Assembly (NCBI GenBank): GCA_030696845.1
Contig: JAUYRJ010000016.1
Span: 1 to 38,897 of the forward strand
Direction of reading: 5' to 3'
DNA from: Polynucleobacter sp.
GTDB lineage: Bacteria > Pseudomonadota > Gammaproteobacteria > Burkholderiales > Burkholderiaceae
DNA length: 38,897 bases
In this document: positions 16,113-38,897 of the stretch, piece by piece
How positions within the stretch are numbered: the stretch's first letter is position 1
How the letters are laid out: the number at the start of each line of letters is the position of its first letter
Program-made: the position numbers and the translations under genes
Notes under the pieces: generated by a model
What the model was told of the DNA's origin: nothing
What the model saw: only the letters and a program-made list of their open reading frames with translations
Database searches by the model: none

Positions 16113-16471
16113 GGGGTCGACATGGTTTCGACGTGGATTACAAAGCATCAAGGGCATACCGAGGACCCGTTATCTCGTAAATCAATGGGAATGTAATAAC
16201 TGCTAACGACGAACGTTACGCACTAGCCGCTTAATTGCGGTTGCCCCTGAACTGATTCTCTCTTGGGTCAGGTAGCGAAAGCTACATCAGGGTCATTTAC
16301 AAGAGATAAGGTTGCCTCGTGTCACGAGGGGTAGCTCGAAAATAAAGTGAATCGCCAGTGTGGAACGTGTCTATCCGTGACTAGCCGGCTAAATTAAATG
16401 ATATGACTAAGTATGTAGAACTTGTTGTAGAGGATTTGCGGACGCGGGTTCGATTCCCGCCGACTCCACCA
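16113..16471 (+). ncRNA. ssrA: Transfer-messenger RNA (tmRNA), tag (A)ANDERYALAA
   Basis: One-piece tmRNA of about 359 nt. The 5' end GGGGTCGACATGGTTTCGAC pairs with the 3' end CGACTCC-ACCA to give a 7-bp acceptor stem, and a T-arm with GGTTCGATTCC is present near the 3' end. The resume codon GCT is at 16202, and the frame reads ANDERYALAA then TAA at 16232-16234. It rescues stalled ribosomes together with SmpB. The 3' end is a common integrase target, and an integrase remnant follows within 170 bp. Confidence 0.97.
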
Positions 16472-16582: not shown

Positions 16583-16646
16583 TTGGGGGGTATTATTGGG
16601 GGTATTCAAGCAAAATCGAACTGGGTAAAAAACATGGTTGGGGGTA
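16583..16646 (+). repeat. Iterated TTGGGGGTA motif at the integrase remnant
   Basis: TTGGGGGGTATTA at 16583 is followed directly by TTGGGGGTATT at 16596, a 13-bp period. A third TTGGGGGTA lies at 16638-16646, across the likely start of the truncated integrase gene. The arrangement suggests binding sites for the integrase or a directionality factor; no function is proven. Confidence 0.8.
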
Positions 16647-16879
16647 CGTCTGGAAGGCTTACAGATAAAGGGATTAAAAGTTTTATCACCCGCAAAGTCA
16701 TAGGCAGTAAGCTTTCAGATGGTCAGGGCCTTTATCTACTTATCACCCGAGCCAAAACAGCTTCTTGGCGCATCAAATGCCGCCTAGAAGGTAAGGAAAA
16801 AATCTACTCGATTGGCACCTATCCTCAAAACAGCTTGGCACAGGCCAGGTTAGAGCTGAACAAAGTTAAGGTCCATTAA
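16634..16879 (+). pseudogene. Truncated P4-type tyrosine integrase (N-terminal domain only)
   Basis: The 81-residue reading frame from the ATG at 16634 matches only the N-terminal DUF4102-like domain of P4-type integrases, with LTDKGIKSF, KLSDGQGLYLLIT, WRIKCRLEGKEK and SIGTYPQNSLAQAR in the expected order. Full-length family members are about 400 aa, so the core-binding and catalytic domains are missing; the frame ends at 16879. It lies just downstream of the ssrA terminator, the usual position for an integrase that used the tmRNA 3' end as its attachment site. An in-frame TTG at 16583 would lengthen it but lies inside the repeat motif. I did not find the matching second attachment copy in the window. 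Confidence 0.85.
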
Positions 16880-17731: not shown

Positions 17732-17834
17732 TTTTATATCTTAAACGGTAATTTTTTCGAAAAATAGCCTTTTTACCGCCTGTTTGCACCCGCAATAAGC
17801 AGTTAGAAAGACCGAATTGAGGCCTTGTTTTAGT

Positions 17835-17856
17835 GGTGGGTAGAAAGGTGGGTAGA
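17835..17856. repeat. Direct repeat GGTGGGTAGA, 12-bp period, near tRNA-Ser
   Basis: Two identical copies at 17835-17844 and 17847-17856 (TCTACCCACC on the minus strand), about 50 bp beyond the 3' end of tRNA-Ser. In spacing it resembles the pair at the ssrA integrase and the pair before the recombinase at 37281. It may be left over from an integrase promoter region. Confidence 0.75.
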
Positions 17857-17872
17857 GAACCTTCCAAAAGAT

Positions 17873-17895
17873 AGAGCCCCGTATATACGGGCTCT
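17873..17895 (-). terminator. Probable terminator of tRNA-Ser(UGA)
   Basis: On the minus strand the stem AGAGCCC/GGGCTCT surrounds a palindromic CGTATATACG core. Only a short T stretch (CTTTT) follows, so efficiency may be moderate. It lies 12 bp after the tRNA 3' end. Confidence 0.6.
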
Positions 17896-17906
17896 CCTGT
17901 CGTATG

Positions 17907-17996
17907 TGGCGGAAGCTGTGAGATTCGAACTCACGGAGGACTTGCATCCTCGCCAGTTTTCAAGACTGGTGCATTCAACCGCTCTGCCAAGCTTCC
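17907..17996 (-). tRNA. serT: tRNA-Ser(UGA)
   Basis: A 90-nt type II tRNA with the CCA end encoded. The acceptor stem is GGAAGCT/AGCTTCC followed by G-CCA. The anticodon stem-loop CCAGT-CTTGAAA-ACTGG gives anticodon TGA. A long variable arm and the T-loop GTTCGAATC are present. It reads UCN serine codons, mainly UCA. Confidence 0.96.
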
Positions 17997-26280: not shown

Positions 26281-27942
26281 TTATTTTGAGATCGGTTTAC
26301 CACCCGAGCGCGGCGTCAAGATGGTGGGGTAGGACACAGCCCACGTTTCAGGGTAGTCACGGCTGTAATGCAAGCCCCTGCTCTCTCTTCTAAGCAAAGC
26401 CGATCGCACAATTAACTCCGCGCATTCCAGTAAGTTGCGCAACTCAATTAAATCGCGTGAGACCTTAAAGTTACTGTAGTACTCCTGCACCTCGTTGCGC
26501 AATAACTCAATGCGGTGCAGTGCGCGCTCAAGGCGCCGATTGGTGCGTACGATGCCGACGTAGTTCCACATTAAAGAGCGCAATTCATCCCAATTGTGGG
26601 CGATCACCACCTGCTCGTCAGCATCTTCCACCTGACTCTCATCCCATAAAGGCAGGTTGGGTAGTGGCGGTGTTTGGGCGGTGGCAATATCGCGCGCGGC
26701 AGACTTACCAATCACCACACACTCCAGCAATGAGTTGCTTGCCAATCGGTTAGCGCCATGCAGTCCGGTATAGGTTGCCTCGCCAACTGCATACAGCCCC
26801 GGCAAGTCGGTCTTACCATTTAAGTCGGTCACCACACCCCCACAGGTATAGTGGGCTGCTGGCACCACCGGTATTGCTTGCTGGGTAATGTCGATCCCTA
26901 AGCTTAAGCAGCGCGCGTAAATCATCGGGAAGTGTTCTTTGATGAATGCCTCACCCAACTCTGTCGCATCCAGATTGACATAATCGAGGCCATGCTTTTT
27001 CATTTCAAAGTCAATAGCGCGGGCCACAATATCGCGCGGCGCAAGCTCGCCACGGGCATCGTGTTCTGGCATAAAGCGGGTGCCATCGGGCAAGCGCAGG
27101 ATGCCGCCCTCTCCGCGCAAAGCTTCCGTAATCAAGAAGGTACGATCGCTGGGGTGATACAAGCAGGTTGGATGAAACTGAATAAATTCCATATTACCAA
27201 CGCGGCAACCCGCCCGCCAGGCCATGGCAATGCCATCGCCCGTCGCCGTATCGGGATTGCTGGTGTAGCGATAGACTTTGCCAACGCCTCCAGTAGCGAG
27301 CACCACCGACTTAGCGGCAATGGTTTCTACATGGTTGGTATTGATATTGAGAGCATACACCCCATAACAGCGATTGGGTCGATTGCGCTTTTCTTTGGCA
27401 CCCAGGTGACGATTGGTAATCAAATCAAGGGCGATCCAATGCTCCAAAATAGAGATATTGGGGTGAGCGCGCGCATGATCCAATAGCACCTCATGAATCG
27501 CCTTGCCCGTCGCATCTGCTGCATGGGCAATGCGGCGGTGGCTATGGCCACCCTCGCGCGTGAGGTGCAAGCCCATTGGACCGCTTTTATCCGTCGTAAA
27601 TGGCACGCCTTGATCTACTAACCACTGAATAGCGTCTGCACTCTCTTCGGCAATATAGCGGGCGGTAGATTCCACCACCAAGCCCGCGCCGGCATCAATG
27701 GTGTCACTCACGTGCGCATCAATGCTGTCATGTTCTTTATCAACCACGCCCACAATACCGCCCTGTGCCCATGCAGTGGCTGCCTCATCTAAGCCGCGTT
27801 TAGCCATCAACACCACTTTTTGGGTCTCTGCTAAATGCAGCGCTACCGTGAGACCCGCAAGCCCCGCACCAATAATCAAGACGGGTAAGTCTGCCGCATC
27901 GGATGGGATAGCTTGGTCTGTTGATTTTGAGTTTGTTGGCAT
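26281..27942 (-). CDS. nadB: L-aspartate oxidase
   Basis: FAD enzyme that oxidises aspartate to iminoaspartate for NadA. The 553-aa protein has the N-terminal FAD motif [19 protein letters not shown] (about residues 21-39), the [14 protein letters not shown] segment, the [10 protein letters not shown] active-site region, [15 protein letters not shown], and [17 protein letters not shown]. The C-terminal helical domain of the succinate dehydrogenase/fumarate reductase flavoprotein family is complete. It is not in an operon with nadA-nadC but lies opposite to them, separated by the broken lipoprotein gene. Confidence 0.96.
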
Positions 27943-33482: not shown

Positions 33483-35954
33483 CTACTTAGAGCCCAGCGC
33501 CACTTCCAGCGGAATGCCGTCGCGATTAGCGCTAGCCTCTTTGGCTGGGCTCACCACAATGCGATCTTGCAGCGCTGGCGCTGCTTTGAGCATGAGCTCT
33601 TGCGCCAGCTTTGCTCTTGCATCGCCCAGAGCCCGCAATTGCTGTGTATCCACTGCGTAATGGGCAATCAACTCCTGTCGCAATTGCTGATAACGCTCTA
33701 CGTTATCGGACAAGGTGATGATGCGCTGCGCCAGCTTAATCCGCCCAATCTCAGTTCCATAAGCGGACTTCACGCCCGCCTGAATGCGTTTATCGGCAAG
33801 GCTGGGCATCGGCAAAGGCGCGTTGGGCTCAAGCTTAAAGCCGGCTGCAATCAAAATCGCGCGGTCCGCCTTGGCTCTAGCCAATTCCAAACGATCGCGC
33901 TCCGCATCATAGGTGCCAATCAAACTTAAGGTAGCGTGCGGACGTTTAGCCAATACCTCACTGTATTTAACTAGCCGATCTTCGTCCTCGGGCAAATACG
34001 CCACCTCGCCTGGGATTGCGTTAATCGCCACATCACCCTTGAGGCCCAAGATCGATGCTAAAGCCCTAAAGGGTGCCGTCACGACATTACTCAGCACCGT
34101 TCGAATGGCTTGCCAAACAAGTCCGGCCGCACTGAACTCAGGGGAATTAACGTTACCGGCAATATCGATATTGACATCAATAATGTCATCCGAGTCTTCC
34201 AGTAGTGCTACTGCCAATCCTAAAGGCAGGCGCTTACCTTTGAATTCAGGGACCTCTTCCCCTAGTTCAATGTTTTTAATCACAAAGCGATTTTGGCCAT
34301 TGAGTTGACCATCGGTGGATTTGTAATTCAGGGAGAGGTCTAAACGACCACCCAATATATGTTGCCCCGCAAATGCCATGAAATACGGATTGGCATCGCT
34401 TAGTGGCAAGTGGCGGAACTGCAAGACCATATCGTGATTTAAACGGGGATCGTCAAACGCCATTTGCCCTTTGGCGCGCATGCTACCGGAATTGGCCACG
34501 ACTCCATCTAGAGCGATCGACGCAAAATGACCCGGCGCATTACTGATGCCCAGCAGTGATCCTTTGAGTTTGCGAATTTGCACCTGCACTTTAGGCTTAA
34601 TCGCTAAATCGGTAAATGCCATCGTGCCATCACGCAACTGCACCGAGCGCACATCTAAACTAAAGAGGCTGGGTTCTTTTTTGGCAGGCGCTGCACTTTC
34701 AGCAGCCTGTGGAGTATTTTCTGGAGCAACATTATTGGCTGGTGAATCGATTGGCGCAGGCTCTGCCGCATCGCCGCCTTTCATGAAGAGGCGCCGAAAG
34801 TTCGACAAACCCTTCTCATTGATCTCGTACTGTATTTGCGGCTGTGCTAACGCGACCTCATGAATGGATAACTGACTGCGGCCATCGGCCTGCTTTTTAA
34901 ATAGCAGTTGCTCGATATTGGCTTCTTTCCAAGCCAGCAGTGGCGCCTTGGCATTGACCTCACGAATAAACACATCCGGAAATGCCAGATTGCCTTTTAC
35001 CGACCATGCGCCCTGCCCCATCTCGAGCGCCAGATCGCCAGCCAACGTGCCACTTTGGGTAAAAAGTGGTTTATTCGCTGGCAATAAGCCGACCAACTGA
35101 GTAATCGGCATTTGCTCGATCGCCAGCGTGCCAGATAAGCTATTGCTCTTCGCGCCAAAGAGCCAATGGGAGGTGATTTTTCCATTGTCCAATTGCACCG
35201 CCAAATCAATCGCTAATGCATCGTTTTCTGCCGCATCCACGCCCCCACTCAATATGGCTTTACTGAACTGAACGCGCTGACCCGTTTTGGGAATCACAAA
35301 GTCGATCTTGCCCAGATCAATTTGATAGTCACCCTCGACGGTATTGGGTTTGCCCTCGGCACTGTGGTTTGCTACATCGCGCAATTGAAATGCCATTGGC
35401 CCGAATTCCTGCACGTATTGATTGGGTCGATCGTTTAAGCGCAATACGAAGCCGCTGGTATCAAACTGCTTCACCATTATTTTTTTGGGGGAAGATACGG
35501 CTGCTGGATCTTTGGGTGGTAAGGCTGCCGTTACTGCGGCAATAAACGTTTGCCAATTCCATTGCGTTGGCTTGCCTGCACTTAGTCCGCGCTCGACATT
35601 AATCTTGGGGCCATCCAAAAGAATCGTATCGATCCCAATCTTGCCTGCCAGCAAGGCTGTCCAATTGAGCTCAATCAGACCACGCTCGAGTGAAAATAAT
35701 GGGGCTGAACTCGGTTCGCGACTGGCTAAGGTCAATCCATCGATCTCGAGTTTGAGCTGAAATGGCGAGAGGCGCAGATCGCGATACTCGATGCGATACC
35801 CCATCTTGGCGCTGTACTCTTCGAGTGATTGCTTTAAGAAATGCACGCCCCACGTAATGCCCAAGACCCAAAAGGCCAAGACCAAGCCCAGCACGGTAAG
35901 TACCGTATACCGCAAGGCATTAGAGCGATAAAGAGATTGAAGTCGTGTTCCCAT
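33483..35954 (-). CDS. DUF748 domain-containing, AsmA-like envelope protein
   Basis: A large periplasm-facing protein with one N-terminal membrane helix (about residues 15-37, YTVLTVLGLVLAFWVLGITW). A long AsmA/DUF748-type beta-rich region follows, with KMGYRIEYRDLRLSPFQLKL, many short repeats of paired strands and a Pro/Ala-rich linker in the middle. The C-terminus carries DAERDRLELARAKADRA, recalling OmpA-like helices. AsmA-like proteins are linked to phospholipid transport and outer-membrane homeostasis; this member's role is unknown. I use the ATG at 35954 (823 aa); a TTG three codons earlier is also in frame. Confidence 0.88.
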   Translation of the reverse strand: MGTRLQSLYRSNALRYTVLTVLGLVLAFWVLGITWGVHFLKQSLEEYSAKMGYRIEYRDLRLSPFQLKLEIDGLTLASREPSSAPLFSLERGLIELNWTALLAGKIGIDTILLDGPKINVERGLSAGKPTQWNWQTFIAAVTAALPPKDPAAVSSPKKIMVKQFDTSGFVLRLNDRPNQYVQEFGPMAFQLRDVANHSAEGKPNTVEGDYQIDLGKIDFVIPKTGQRVQFSKAILSGGVDAAENDALAIDLAVQLDNGKITSHWLFGAKSNSLSGTLAIEQMPITQLVGLLPANKPLFTQSGTLAGDLALEMGQGAWSVKGNLAFPDVFIREVNAKAPLLAWKEANIEQLLFKKQADGRSQLSIHEVALAQPQIQYEINEKGLSNFRRLFMKGGDAAEPAPIDSPANNVAPENTPQAAESAAPAKKEPSLFSLDVRSVQLRDGTMAFTDLAIKPKVQVQIRKLKGSLLGISNAPGHFASIALDGVVANSGSMRAKGQMAFDDPRLNHDMVLQFRHLPLSDANPYFMAFAGQHILGGRLDLSLNYKSTDGQLNGQNRFVIKNIELGEEVPEFKGKRLPLGLAVALLEDSDDIIDVNIDIAGNVNSPEFSAAGLVWQAIRTVLSNVVTAPFRALASILGLKGDVAINAIPGEVAYLPEDEDRLVKYSEVLAKRPHATLSLIGTYDAERDRLELARAKADRAILIAAGFKLEPNAPLPMPSLADKRIQAGVKSAYGTEIGRIKLAQRIITLSDNVERYQQLRQELIAHYAVDTQQLRALGDARAKLAQELMLKAAPALQDRIVVSPAKEASANRDGIPLEVALGSK

Positions 35955-36129
35955 TAGTGTCAATTATCAAACAAAATACGGACTACATCCCACATCGAAA
36001 TGGGATCACCTAGAGCCGCATCAGACCCAACGGGAATGGCTATTGTCTGCTGGGCTAATACAAGCGTTTGGGCATTACAGGGTATCAGCACTTTCGTACA
36101 CGCTTTTCAGTAAAGGATGATGTAATATA

Positions 36130-36147
36130 CGTACCATAATTGGTACG
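36130..36147. promoter_or_regulatory. Palindromic operator candidate before the HigBA-type pair
   Basis: Perfect inverted repeat CGTACCA-TAAT-TGGTACG, 8 bp before the toxin start. A -10-like TAATAT at 36123-36128 precedes it. The short leader leaves no SD, so transcription may start inside the repeat. Confidence 0.7.
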
Positions 36148-36155
36148 ATATTTGG

Positions 36156-36503
36156 ATGAATAAGCCCATCCTACATGTCTACTTTTATAAAACGGAACAG
36201 GGTAATGAGCCGGTTAGGCAGTGGTTACTTCGTCTTAACGCAGATGATAAGAAACGCATAGGCGAAGACATCAAAACTGTTCAGTTTGGATGGCCCTTGG
36301 GTATGCCACTAGTAAAACATCTTGACGGAGAGTTATGGGAGGTGCGCATACCGCTAAACAAACGTAATGCAAGGGTGTTATTTGTACTGAATAAGGGTTC
36401 AATAGTATTAATTCATGGGTTTATTAAAAAGCAGCAAAAGACCTTGAAATCGGATTTAGAGTTAGCAAAAGACAGAGCGAAGATCTTACGGGAGCGTTTA
36501 TGA
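36156..36503 (+). CDS. higB: HigB/RelE-type toxin of the Gp49-like family
   Basis: The 115-aa basic protein starts HVYFYKTEQGNEPVRQWLLR and has FGWPLGMPLVKHLDGELWEVRI, ARVLFVLNKGSIVLIHGFIKK and a C-terminal helix rich in Lys and Arg, the Gp49-like/HigB toxin pattern. Such toxins usually cleave mRNA on the ribosome. It comes before its antitoxin, the usual higBA order, and overlaps it by 4 bp (ATGA). There is no clear SD before the ATG. Confidence 0.87.
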   Translation: MNKPILHVYFYKTEQGNEPVRQWLLRLNADDKKRIGEDIKTVQFGWPLGMPLVKHLDGELWEVRIPLNKRNARVLFVLNKGSIVLIHGFIKKQQKTLKSDLELAKDRAKILRERL

Positions 36504-36790
36504 AGAAAAAACACATTGGCAGTAACTTTGATGATTTTTTAAAAGGGGAATCCATCCTGGATCATTCCAGCGCGGTAGCGGTTAAACGCGTCATTGCCTG
36601 GCAAATTGAACAAGAAATGATGAAGCAACAATTAACTAAAACGCTAATGGCTAAGAGAATGCACACCAGCCGAGCAGCACTGAATCGATTATTGGATGAG
36701 ACCGATACAAGCCTAACCCTACTCACCTTGACTAGCGCCGCCTCCGCGCTTGGAAAAATGATTACATTTAAGTTGAAAGCGGTTTCCTAG
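36500..36790 (+). CDS. higA: HigA-type antitoxin (XRE-like helix-turn-helix)
   Basis: The 96-aa protein has a helix-turn-helix in the C-terminal half (QLTKTLMAKRMHTSRAALNR then LLDETDTSLTLLTLTSAA), typical of antitoxins paired with Gp49-like toxins. The N-terminal part (NFDDFLKGESILDHSSAVAV) is the likely toxin-binding piece. Translation is coupled to the toxin by overlap. The palindrome at 36130-36147 is its probable operator. Confidence 0.86.
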   Translation: MKKKHIGSNFDDFLKGESILDHSSAVAVKRVIAWQIEQEMMKQQLTKTLMAKRMHTSRAALNRLLDETDTSLTLLTLTSAASALGKMITFKLKAVS

Positions 36791-37118
36791 TCGATGCAGG
36801 CAAGATTATGCCCATGATGAAGACCAAGCCAACCAAGGTGATCGAATCTCCTGAGTCTACCGCTGCATATTCTTCCAAATCATTCTGGAAGAAATGAGAT
36901 TTATTTCAGTCGAACCCTCAACATCAGATACGATAATTTCTAGCCGAGCTTCATCCAATAACGTGGCGACGTGGGGATAAATCCCTATCTAGCAGTTCAG
37001 TGCTGTAACTAATGCTAGCTGTCTTGCTTGCCATACACAAACCATGCGATTTTTTAAGGTGCTCACGCGCAATGACATCAAGGCCGAACGGCAAAAGTAA
37101 GGAGAGCAAAACCAGGGC
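36791..37118. other. Gene-free stretch with possible decayed coding traces
   Basis: I support no intact gene here. On the minus strand, pieces in different frames look protein-like, such as TELLDRDLSPRR, LDEARLEIIVSDVEGSTEI and a hydrophobic ITLVGLVFIMGIILPA, each cut by stops. They may be the remnants of one or two old genes, or chance. The stretch ends at the displaced tRNA terminator and attachment site. Confidence 0.4.
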
Positions 37119-37152
37119 AAAAAAAATCCCCTTGGATTACGAAATCAAGGGG
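37119..37152 (-). terminator. Displaced tRNA terminator at the element edge
   Basis: On the minus strand a 7-bp stem CCCCTTG/CAAGGGG is followed by a run of eight T. It lies 11 bp after the tRNA-3'-end copy at 37164-37181, as expected for the original terminator of the target tRNA left behind by integration. Confidence 0.85.
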
Positions 37153-37163
37153 ATTGATACAAC

Positions 37164-37181
37164 TGGCGGAGAGGGCGGGAT
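37164..37181 (-). repeat. Attachment site: duplicated tRNA 3' end (probably tRNA-Ser)
   Basis: The minus-strand block ATCCCGCCCTCTCCGCCA has the form of a tRNA end: T-loop AT, T-stem half CCCGC, acceptor half CCTCTCC, G73 and CCA. The acceptor half CCTCTCC would pair with GGAGAGG, as in many tRNA-Ser. No tRNA body precedes it, so it is a partial copy. It differs from the tRNA-Ser(UGA) at 17907, which shares only TCCGCCA. It marks the left boundary of the element carrying the recombinase at 37281. Confidence 0.8.
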
Positions 37182-37242
37182 ACTCTGCTTAAAGTCGTTT
37201 CAGCCTTATAAACATTATATTTATTGACTTCTGACACATAGC

Positions 37243-37265
37243 GTAGTACAAAAGTGTAGTACAAA
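37243..37265. repeat. Direct repeat GTAGTACAAA, 13-bp period, before the recombinase
   Basis: Identical 10-bp copies at 37243-37252 and 37256-37265, ending 15 bp before the recombinase start and 62 bp inside the attachment site. Probable recombinase arm-type or operator sites. Confidence 0.78.
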
Positions 37266-37280
37266 CCAATCTCACCGCTT

Positions 37281-38510
37281 ATGTCTAATTATATATTACT
37301 TCAACGCAAATGCTGGTATGCCCGCTTGGGTATCCCTGTAGAGCTCAGACCTCATTTCAATGGCAAGAGAGAACTCAAGGAGACTCTAAAAACCTCAGAC
37401 CAGCGTGTCGCCGAACTAAAAGCCATGAAGCTCGTAGGAGGTTGGAAAATGCAGTTCGATGCTCTCAGAGGAAGTGTTTACGCATCCCAAGCCTTAGCAG
37501 CTGACTTCTTGCCACATCCAGATGGCAGAGTTAATTCTGAGACAGGGATGAGCGATAAGGACTATGCAATTGAAGCACAAGCAGATGCGTTGGCTGATGG
37601 TCAAAAGAGAGCATTCTATGAAGTTGCCTTAGGGAGGGCTACACCTACCCTGCTCTATTTGGATAAGTTCCTAAAGCAGTGGGAGGTAGAGCAAAAGACT
37701 AAAGACATGGCTCAAACAGCCATTAAGCGAGTAGCAGATAACTTCACTACTCTAGAGATGATTACTGTGCCTCTGATTTATCAAATGATTGATGCAGATA
37801 CCAATAGAAAGGCAACAAAAGAAAAGAATTACGGCTTTGTTAGGCAGTACTTTAAATACCTAAAGCGTATGCAAGCAATCCCTCAGGATAAGCCTAACCC
37901 TTTCGAGGATTTAGACTTCAAGCAGCCAAAGAAAAATGCTGCTACAAGCAATAAAAGGACTGCCTTTACAGCTGCTGAAGTTAAAAAGCTCATGAAAGCA
38001 GCAGCAGACAAAGGTGATGCACAGTTGATGAATCTGATTCAGTTAGCAGCTTATACAGGTGCACGAATAGAAGAGTTGTGCAGCCTTAAAGTTACTGATG
38101 TCATCAAGGTAGATAGAGTTAACTGCCTCAGTATTACGGATGCAAAGACAGAAGCAGGAAACAGAGAAGTTCCAATCCATCCATCAATCGCAGACCTTGT
38201 TAAAAAGCTAATAGAAAAAAGTGCTGACGGATACCTCTTTTCGGGACTAACCTTCAATAAGTATATGAAGCGAAGTAATGCAATAGGTAAGCGTTTTGGG
38301 CATATGAAGACTGGACAAGGTTTTGGCAAGGGACATGTCTTTCACTGCTTTAGGAATACTGTGGCAACCCAGCTTGAAAACGCTGGAGTCCCAGAGGGTG
38401 TCGCTGCCGATATTGTTGGGCATGAGAAAAAGACGATGACTTATGGACTTTACTCTGGCGGCACTTCTGCAAAGATTAAGTATGAAGCAGTTAAGAAAAT
38501 TAAATATTGA
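37281..38510 (+). CDS. int: Tyrosine recombinase / integrase
   Basis: The 409-aa phage-type integrase has an N-terminal segment like those that open with a Tyr-Leu-x-Arg-Arg pattern (YILLQRKCWYARLGIP), a SAM-like core-binding domain (about 120-215), and a catalytic domain. Catalytic residues seen are Arg262 (YTGARIEELC), Lys289 (TDAKTEAGNR), His355 and Arg358 (HCFRN), His381 (GHEKK), and the nucleophile Tyr391 (YGLYSGG). All are intact, so it is probably active. It reads away from the attachment site at 37164-37181 and is AT-richer than the core genes, in keeping with transfer. Confidence 0.93.
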   Translation: MSNYILLQRKCWYARLGIPVELRPHFNGKRELKETLKTSDQRVAELKAMKLVGGWKMQFDALRGSVYASQALAADFLPHPDGRVNSETGMSDKDYAIEAQADALADGQKRAFYEVALGRATPTLLYLDKFLKQWEVEQKTKDMAQTAIKRVADNFTTLEMITVPLIYQMIDADTNRKATKEKNYGFVRQYFKYLKRMQAIPQDKPNPFEDLDFKQPKKNAATSNKRTAFTAAEVKKLMKAAADKGDAQLMNLIQLAAYTGARIEELCSLKVTDVIKVDRVNCLSITDAKTEAGNREVPIHPSIADLVKKLIEKSADGYLFSGLTFNKYMKRSNAIGKRFGHMKTGQGFGKGHVFHCFRNTVATQLENAGVPEGVAADIVGHEKKTMTYGLYSGGTSAKIKYEAVKKIKY

Positions 38511-38529
38511 TAGCTGAGATAAACCTAAA

Positions 38530-38733
38530 TTGGTTACCGTAAAACACAATTCAGTGACGCATGAATTTGAAACTTTAGACCAAGCAATGGCTTGGGCAAA
38601 GGAGTTAGGTGATTTTGTGACAATTCAATTTAATGGTTCAGAGGTTGTTGGTAAGTTTGGAGCGGATGGCATCTTGGACGGTAAGCTCCCAAATGGTGAA
38701 TCCTATAGATGGAAAAAACGTAGAAGAACTTAA
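38530..38733 (+). CDS. Small hypothetical protein of the integrated element (67 aa)
   Basis: A frame beginning with TTG at 38530 (MVTVKHNSVTHEFETL) and ending YRWKKRRRT, with a very basic tail. I do not recognise it. It starts 19 bp after the recombinase stop and may be co-transcribed. There is no ATG near the start, and the SD is not obvious. The next frame begins 5 bp after its stop. Confidence 0.6.
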   Translation: MVTVKHNSVTHEFETLDQAMAWAKELGDFVTIQFNGSEVVGKFGADGILDGKLPNGESYRWKKRRRT

Positions 38734-38738
38734 AGACT

Positions 38739-38897
38739 ATGCCTTCATTTGAATATCGAGCTTACTCAAGGCATCCAGCCATCTCTAAGCAAGCCAAAGT
38801 GCTTGTTGATGAGATGCTCACAAGCTATAGACGCAAGCCATCGGCAGTAAGGCGAAGCAGTCTTACCAAATGGATGAAGACTGCTGTAGCAGCTCTA
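38739..38897 (+). CDS. Partial hypothetical protein, runs off the window
   Basis: An open frame of 53 codons from the ATG at 38739 (MPSFEYRAYSRHPAISKQ), with no stop before the window ends. The visible part is basic (SYRRKPSAVRRSSLTKW) and could be a DNA-binding or recombination accessory protein, but no family is recognised. It starts 5 bp after the preceding small gene, so it is probably in one operon with it and the recombinase. Confidence 0.6.
   Translation, partial: MPSFEYRAYSRHPAISKQAKVLVDEMLTSYRRKPSAVRRSSLTKWMKTAVAAL

Follow-up and report, generated by a model that had tools for sequence, protein, structure and literature searches.

Why does the end of a tRNA stand without its tRNA between a hairpin and a recombinase gene, close to the end of a contig of Polynucleobacter sp.? 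The stretch of DNA analysed here (the window) is the entire contig C29, 38,897 bp long, from a draft genome of 1.95 Mb in 86 contigs. Its minus strand reads ATCCCGCCCTCTCCGCCA at positions 37164-37181. This 18-bp block, when divided after the model of the intact tRNA-Ser(GGA) on contig C16 of the same genome, consists of AT (end of the T loop), CCCGC (3' half of the T stem), CCTCTCC (3' half of the acceptor stem), the discriminator G and CCA. We propose, at a probability of about 93%, that a mobile element integrated by site-specific recombination of its attP with the 3' end of the tRNA-Ser(GGA) gene. The block would then be the copy of the attachment site that lies away from the tRNA.

A tRNA end without its tRNA

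Within the window the block has a single exact site, and the sole other site at up to three mismatches (position 27101) differs at all three. Shuffled versions of the window gave a mean of 0.04 matches at this threshold and never reached two. Behind the CCA a hairpin followed by eight T occupies 37119-37155 on the minus strand. When 37105-37163 was folded on this strand, the hairpin and the T run came out at -15.4 kcal/mol (z -2.4), a value equalled by 4 of 200 shuffles, with a stem that is bulged in the computed fold. A simple terminator consensus scan of 36800-37400 gave no terminators, and the hairpin therefore fails that consensus. A similar hairpin with a T run is present at same-genus loci, and the one in the window is probably the original terminator of tRNA-Ser(GGA), stranded at the far side of the element.

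The original prediction, made from the letters of the window, had described a tRNA 3' end on the minus strand without a tRNA body, a hairpin with eight T beyond its CCA and an intact recombinase about 100 bp inside. All of this holds. The first is confirmed by reading the sequence and by ARAGORN, which found no tRNA in 36000-38897 of the window, the second by the fold, although the consensus scan missed it, and the third by an integrase frame of full length whose ATG stands 99 bp inside the block. The left boundary of the element is not marked by low GC, because positions 36001-37000, outside the element, are also low in GC (43%).

Where is the tRNA to which the block belongs? In the own genome the block occurs at three sites when up to two mismatches are allowed, and the reversed control pattern at none. 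Besides the window these are tRNA-Ser(GGA) on C16, with an exact match of 18/18, and tRNA-Ser(CGA) on contig C35, with 17/18 and one mismatch. Six short contigs (11,796 bases) are read as N, and genome searches may leave them out. The intact tRNA-Ser(GGA) occupies minus-strand positions C16:526-615, its acceptor stem is GGAGAGG/CCTCTCC, and its end at C16:526-543 is identical to the block in the window. The match between the two copies is confined to exactly these 18 bp and breaks off at both edges. The 3' side of the tRNA points to the contig start, from which it is separated by 525 bp, and the GC content of C16 is 35% over positions 1-500 and 51-56% over 501-2000. By eye no hairpin with a T run is visible after the CCA of this gene.

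A complete tRNA-Ser with just this acceptor stem had been expected on the minus strand, together with the proposal to look for the block inside a complete tRNA; run genome-wide, that search led to one exact copy, in tRNA-Ser(GGA) of C16, which carries all 18 bp. The prediction had further placed the tRNA to the right of the window. The minus-strand gene exists, on C16, while its rightward position follows from orientation and from a shared repeat pair (see below). The claim that everything up to the tRNA is foreign can be judged for the assembled 1.7 kb of C29 and 0.5 kb of C16. Because the only other exact copy of the block ends the C16 tRNA and faces the contig start, we infer that C29 and C16 carry the two flanks of one element, the interior of which was assembled with neither. 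Both exact copies are on the minus strand, and the orientations of the two separate contigs are compatible with a direct repeat. No contig bridges C29 and C16, and the outermost 120 bases of C29 (end) and of C16 (start) have no second copy elsewhere in the genome. Since these end stretches match no other contig and six contigs are read as N, the adjacency of C29 and C16 is deduced rather than read.

The integrase and its relatives

Just inside the block the window encodes a tyrosine integrase of 409 aa (37281-38510, plus strand), recognised as such by Pfam, as a PHROG integrase, by alignment, by AlphaFold2 and by Foldseek. Pfam assigns residues 5-63 to DUF6538 and residues 229-391 to Phage_integrase. 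R262, K289, H355, R358 and H381 are unchanged in all five homologues compared, and so are Y388 and Y391. We take the former five, together with a Tyr, to fill the catalytic roles Arg-Lys-His-Arg-His-Tyr. In the alignment Y379 of Tn1549 Int stands opposite L390 of the integrase, so that either Y388 or Y391 may be the nucleophile. An AlphaFold2 model from five sequences reached a mean pLDDT of 79 and a pTM of 0.51, and its N-terminus runs strand-strand-helix-strand-helix. Arm-binding domains are built of three strands plus a helix. Structures of lambda Int (PDB 1z1b, 5j0n) top the Foldseek list for the integrase, and Tn1549 Int (6emy) tops the sequence list. Because the full-length superposition is poor (the top match has a TM of 0.48 by query and an rmsd of 20), we go as far as calling an arm-binding role of DUF6538 plausible on the strength of the model. 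As a whole the protein is probably a lambda-Int-like tyrosine integrase of a tRNA-gene island, a known kind of system. It differs from lambda Int and Tn1549 Int in its N-terminal family DUF6538, in an identity of about 17-22% and in predicted arm sites that are pairs with a 13-bp period.

Close homologues of the integrase were not found in 60 relatives, 36 of them of the same genus; 12 of the 60 gave matches of 25-31% identity, and the 36 gave matches of 26-31% identity only, in 11 genomes. Scanning viral_contigs with six peptide patterns yielded one candidate and zero confirmed relatives of the integrase. Plasmid matches came to 69 records, all below 60% identity, and among the open-licence PMC papers searched the name DUF6538 appears in none. 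Homologues at 36-40% identity are present in Paucibacter (L091), Primorskyibacter (L092), Maritimibacter (L093) and a marine alphaproteobacterial SAG (L094). These are all four homologues confirmed by the scan, and a further one, G219, was added from 398 genomes of the phylum. In each of the five a tRNA-Ser 3' end is present as a copy of 16-19 bp, the integrase starts 82-120 bp inside it, and an intact tRNA-Ser lies to the right on the minus strand: tRNA-Ser(CGA) about 9.3 kb away in L091, tRNA-Ser(GCT) about 10.5 kb away in L092, tRNA-Ser(TGA) about 12.0 kb away in L093 and about 9.6 kb away in L094, and tRNA-Ser(GCT) about 14.2 kb away in G219. In L093 the block was first read upstream of the integrase and then searched for genome-wide, and the second copy found in this way ends tRNA-Ser(TGA).

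Across the wider family the tRNA-Ser rule holds loosely. Eight further integrases were drawn from the 398 genomes of the phylum (E 1e-40 or better), and G219 alone has the full layout, which brings the core copy together with an intact tRNA-Ser to 6 of 13 integrases (that of the window, the four homologues and the eight further ones). In G366 an end resembling that of tRNA-Ser was recognised by eye, with a repeat pair 63 bp inside and no second copy of that end within 19.5 kb. The element of G100 is at a tmRNA, its integrase adjoining the intact gene, and G351 shows a tmRNA-like end by eye. For G282, G147, G135 and G398 neither a tRNA nor a tmRNA end was seen by ARAGORN over 19.5 kb each or by reading the upstream DNA; a 'tRNA-???' call of ARAGORN in G147 was dismissed as it reads as coding sequence. 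Since only G219 among the eight repeats the layout, specialisation in tRNA-Ser would at most characterise the close clade, and the more distant homologues comply with it in part.

Is the element in the window still whole? Behind the integrase follow a small ORF of 67 aa with a TTG start (38530-38733, plus strand) and the first part of an ORF cut off by the contig end (38739-38897, plus strand). Neither these two nor a C-terminal fragment on C16 has a convincing family match. The interior was searched for in 60 further contigs ranked by GC, six of them read as N, by sampling the first 3 kb of each, or the whole contig if shorter; ten contigs of low GC or short length were taken whole, plus 3 kb of C86. 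Ten ORFs scanned from those contigs comprised AcrB-type efflux, outer-membrane efflux, P-type ATPases, FAD oxidase, porin, a weak Sel1 match, periplasmic binding protein and cyclopropane synthase. Nothing was found that links the sampled contigs to the element. It is possible, though less likely than not, that the element is a defective remnant which has lost excision: about 2.2 kb of it are assembled, and no excisionase was recognised there. This is countered by an integrase frame that is full length and retains the columns invariant across the five homologues, and by core copies that are identical to each other. We infer that the element may still be active.

Paired repeats and the unoccupied site

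Between the block and the integrase gene lies a tandem pair, GTAGTACA-N5-GTAGTACA, with a period of 13 bp (37243-37263, plus strand), which we regard as a predicted arm-type site. In the searchable genome this pattern has two forward matches, the one in the window and one at C16:451-471 in the same orientation, and the reversed control has none. The homologues show a like geometry. On the integrase side all six elements (that of the window and those of the five homologues) have a tandem pair with a period of 13 bp, placed 60-65 bp inward of the block, and five of the six, L091 being the exception, have a pair of the same motif and period on the tRNA side. The motif varies from element to element (GTAGTACA, GTGTGG, AGGGGTA, GTGGGTGG and others) while the period is constant. 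In the five elements scored, the score of the integrase-side pair was reached by 1 to 3 of 300 shuffles. Scores on the tRNA side were reached by 0 and 3 of 300 shuffles in L092 and L094, by 14 of 300 for C16 of the own genome, where an AT-rich repeat with a period of 12 ties with the GTAGTACA pair, and by 30 of 300 in L091, where the repeat differs from that on the integrase side.

An exact pair of 8-mers with a period of 13 was found within 100 bp upstream of 8 of 327 ORFs (at least 150 aa), a control sample that includes the elements themselves, and in 99 of 20,000 random 100-bp windows from the same loci. Seven of the eight ORFs are integrase frames of the family (the window, L091, L093, L094, L209, L210 and L211). 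The eighth pair has an opposite-strand ORF on one side and the integrase of L213 on the other, and stands about 50 bp ahead of the first possible start of that integrase. At positions 974-995 of L213 (G147) a pair almost identical to the GTAGTACA pair precedes the integrase homologue, and no tRNA end was seen adjoining it.

The repeat pairs bear on the question whether one element or two are present. Two different elements might sit in tandem at tRNA-Ser(GGA), one of them contributing the C16 end and the other the window end with the integrase. The interior is not assembled, and in G219 a second pair with a period of 13 lies just outside the block, so that tandem insertion could occur in the family. 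Yet the GTAGTACA pair is found at both ends and nowhere else, and the search for the block gave two exact copies, where two elements in tandem would usually leave three. We therefore consider two elements improbable and a single one by far the better reading.

If a single element integrated, relatives without it should show what the site looked like before. The DNA downstream of tRNA-Ser(GGA) was compared at the loci of 29 relatives, of which 28 belong to the same genus. One of these, G010, has acs, tRNA-Ser(GGA), a terminator and a gene of the AsmA/DUF748 family in this order. In the window a gene with a match to this family lies at 33483-35963 on the minus strand and forms the host flank. 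The G010 gene, starting 108 bp past the CCA, has 58.8% identity to it over 469 aligned columns, in a comparison that ends with the 1.5-kb stretch, the greatest length beyond the tRNA that any of the loci covers. This order connects the left flank on C29 with the right flank on C16 across the element, and represents the unoccupied site. A comparison with relatives that lack the recombinase had been suggested along with the original prediction, and G010 provides the uninterrupted order. It is the only one among the 28 same-genus loci with a clear AsmA neighbour at tRNA-Ser(GGA); G013 has an AsmA match of 37%, located 482 bp past the CCA. In the window 1.2 kb with a Gp49/HigB-like gene separate the AsmA gene from the block, for which there is no space in G010. 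This Gp49-family (HigB-like) gene and a small ORF downstream of it (36156-36790) may be an older, separate insertion.

At 20 of the 28 same-genus loci, as counted by eye, the CCA is closely followed by a hairpin and a T run. Four same-genus genomes (G015, G025, G003 and G001, at loci L040, L041, L042 and L043) have other DNA after the gene and, by eye, no evident terminator, and because of these the tRNA-Ser(GGA) gene looks like a repeatedly used target of insertion. Of 61 same-genus genomes, 56 have one copy of a degenerate form of the block, 3 (the own genome, G023 and G071) have two and 2 have none. It is hardly credible that the block is an 18-mer that arose by chance, or a decayed tRNA pseudogene that has nothing to do with integration. 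Apart from the missing spanning contig nothing speaks in favour of this, and against it stand the mean of 0.04 matches to be expected in the window at up to three mismatches, the single copy in most genomes of the genus, and an integrase and a repeat pair at distances typical of the integrase family.

According to the integration of a single element, then, the attP of the element would recombine with the gene for tRNA-Ser(GGA) at the 3' end of the gene. Because the element would bring its own copy of the last 18 bp, the tRNA beside acs on C16 would have remained whole; the original 18-bp end would have been displaced to the far side together with its terminator (window 37119-37181). The recombinase would be the 409-aa integrase, situated just within the far end and reading into the element. 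It probably acts like lambda Int, in that the catalytic domain would cut in the 18-bp core and the N-terminal DUF6538 domain would hold the tandem repeats with a period of 13 bp, about 50-65 bp inside both core copies.

Other sites in this genome might carry traces of similar events. Behind tRNA-Ser(CGA) at C35:36969-37058 (locus L037 of the own genome, G000) lies a degenerate 13-bp pair, GTACAAAAACGCA-GTACAAAA, that resembles the one of the element and whose score is reached by 7 of 300 shuffles. Because neither an integrase match nor a second core copy was found there (ORFs listed, 12-19.9 kb of L168), we rate this pair as a possible relic of the same integrase family. In the window an ORF of 98 aa at 16583-16879, just after the 3' end of ssrA (tmRNA 16113-16471), has Arm-DNA-bind_3 as its sole family match and looks like a truncated integrase N-terminus, a relic of another island at ssrA. 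Downstream of tRNA-Ser(TGA) (17907-17996), in 17777-17906, we noted a pair with a period of 12 bp, GGTGGGTAGAAA-GGTGGGTA, for which 1 of 300 shuffles was as good. The 3' end of this tRNA has no second copy in the window, and the pair is perhaps a relic of the sites of another integrase.

Relation to known islands and significance

Integration at tRNA 3' ends is common and textbook knowledge. Genomic islands of this type (tDNA islands), as catalogued by Islander, have a regenerated tRNA gene at one end, a displaced fragment at the other and a tyrosine integrase within (PMC4383910). The element described here is like them in that the end of the intact tRNA equals the displaced fragment (18/18 bp) and the integrase is encoded inside, and unlike them in that the island is split over contigs C29 and C16. 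An account of freshwater Methylophilaceae describes a replacement island that is assigned to phage defence, has tRNA-Ser(gga) at its flank and contains a tmRNA gene; our element is like it in having tRNA-Ser(GGA) at its flank, and differs from it in that the replacement island is described as being exchanged by recombination (PMC10872708). The same account describes tycheposons with a tRNA at their border, a tyrosine recombinase and a cargo of 4-200 kb (PMC10872708). The element in the window shares the tRNA border and the tyrosine recombinase, with tRNA-Ser(GGA) in place of the tRNA-Met at which tycheposons start. VPI-2 of Vibrio cholerae, a 57-kb island (PMC3014918), likewise sits at a tRNA-Ser gene.

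What might such elements carry? Selected ORFs between integrase and tRNA were scanned in three relatives (L091, L092 and L094). McrB-like and McrC genes were found in L092, and a UvrD helicase, a GmrSD-Schlafen protein and a Cas4-like nuclease in L094. Five of the ten ORFs scanned had no match in the defence library, and L091 gave weak matches only. Taking the family together, we tentatively suggest, at slightly less than even odds, an unnamed clade of small islands in Alpha- and Betaproteobacteria (about 9-14 kb in the five that were measured). Their DUF6538 integrase would be specialised in tRNA-Ser 3' ends (GGA, CGA, GCT, TGA) and would dock on arm pairs with a period of 13 bp and changing sequence, about 60-65 bp from the core on the integrase side. 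As two of the three relatives scanned have candidate anti-phage genes in the stretch from integrase to tRNA, these islands would be candidate shuttles of defence genes.

In conclusion, the integration event at this locus is ordinary in kind. From it come an exact boundary and, for the clade of DUF6538 integrases, a geometry that can be put to the test (core, 60-65 bp, 13-bp pair, integrase). This geometry allows such islands to be found from one end, which is of use in fragmented assemblies, and the integrase clade is a tidy and perhaps useful one.
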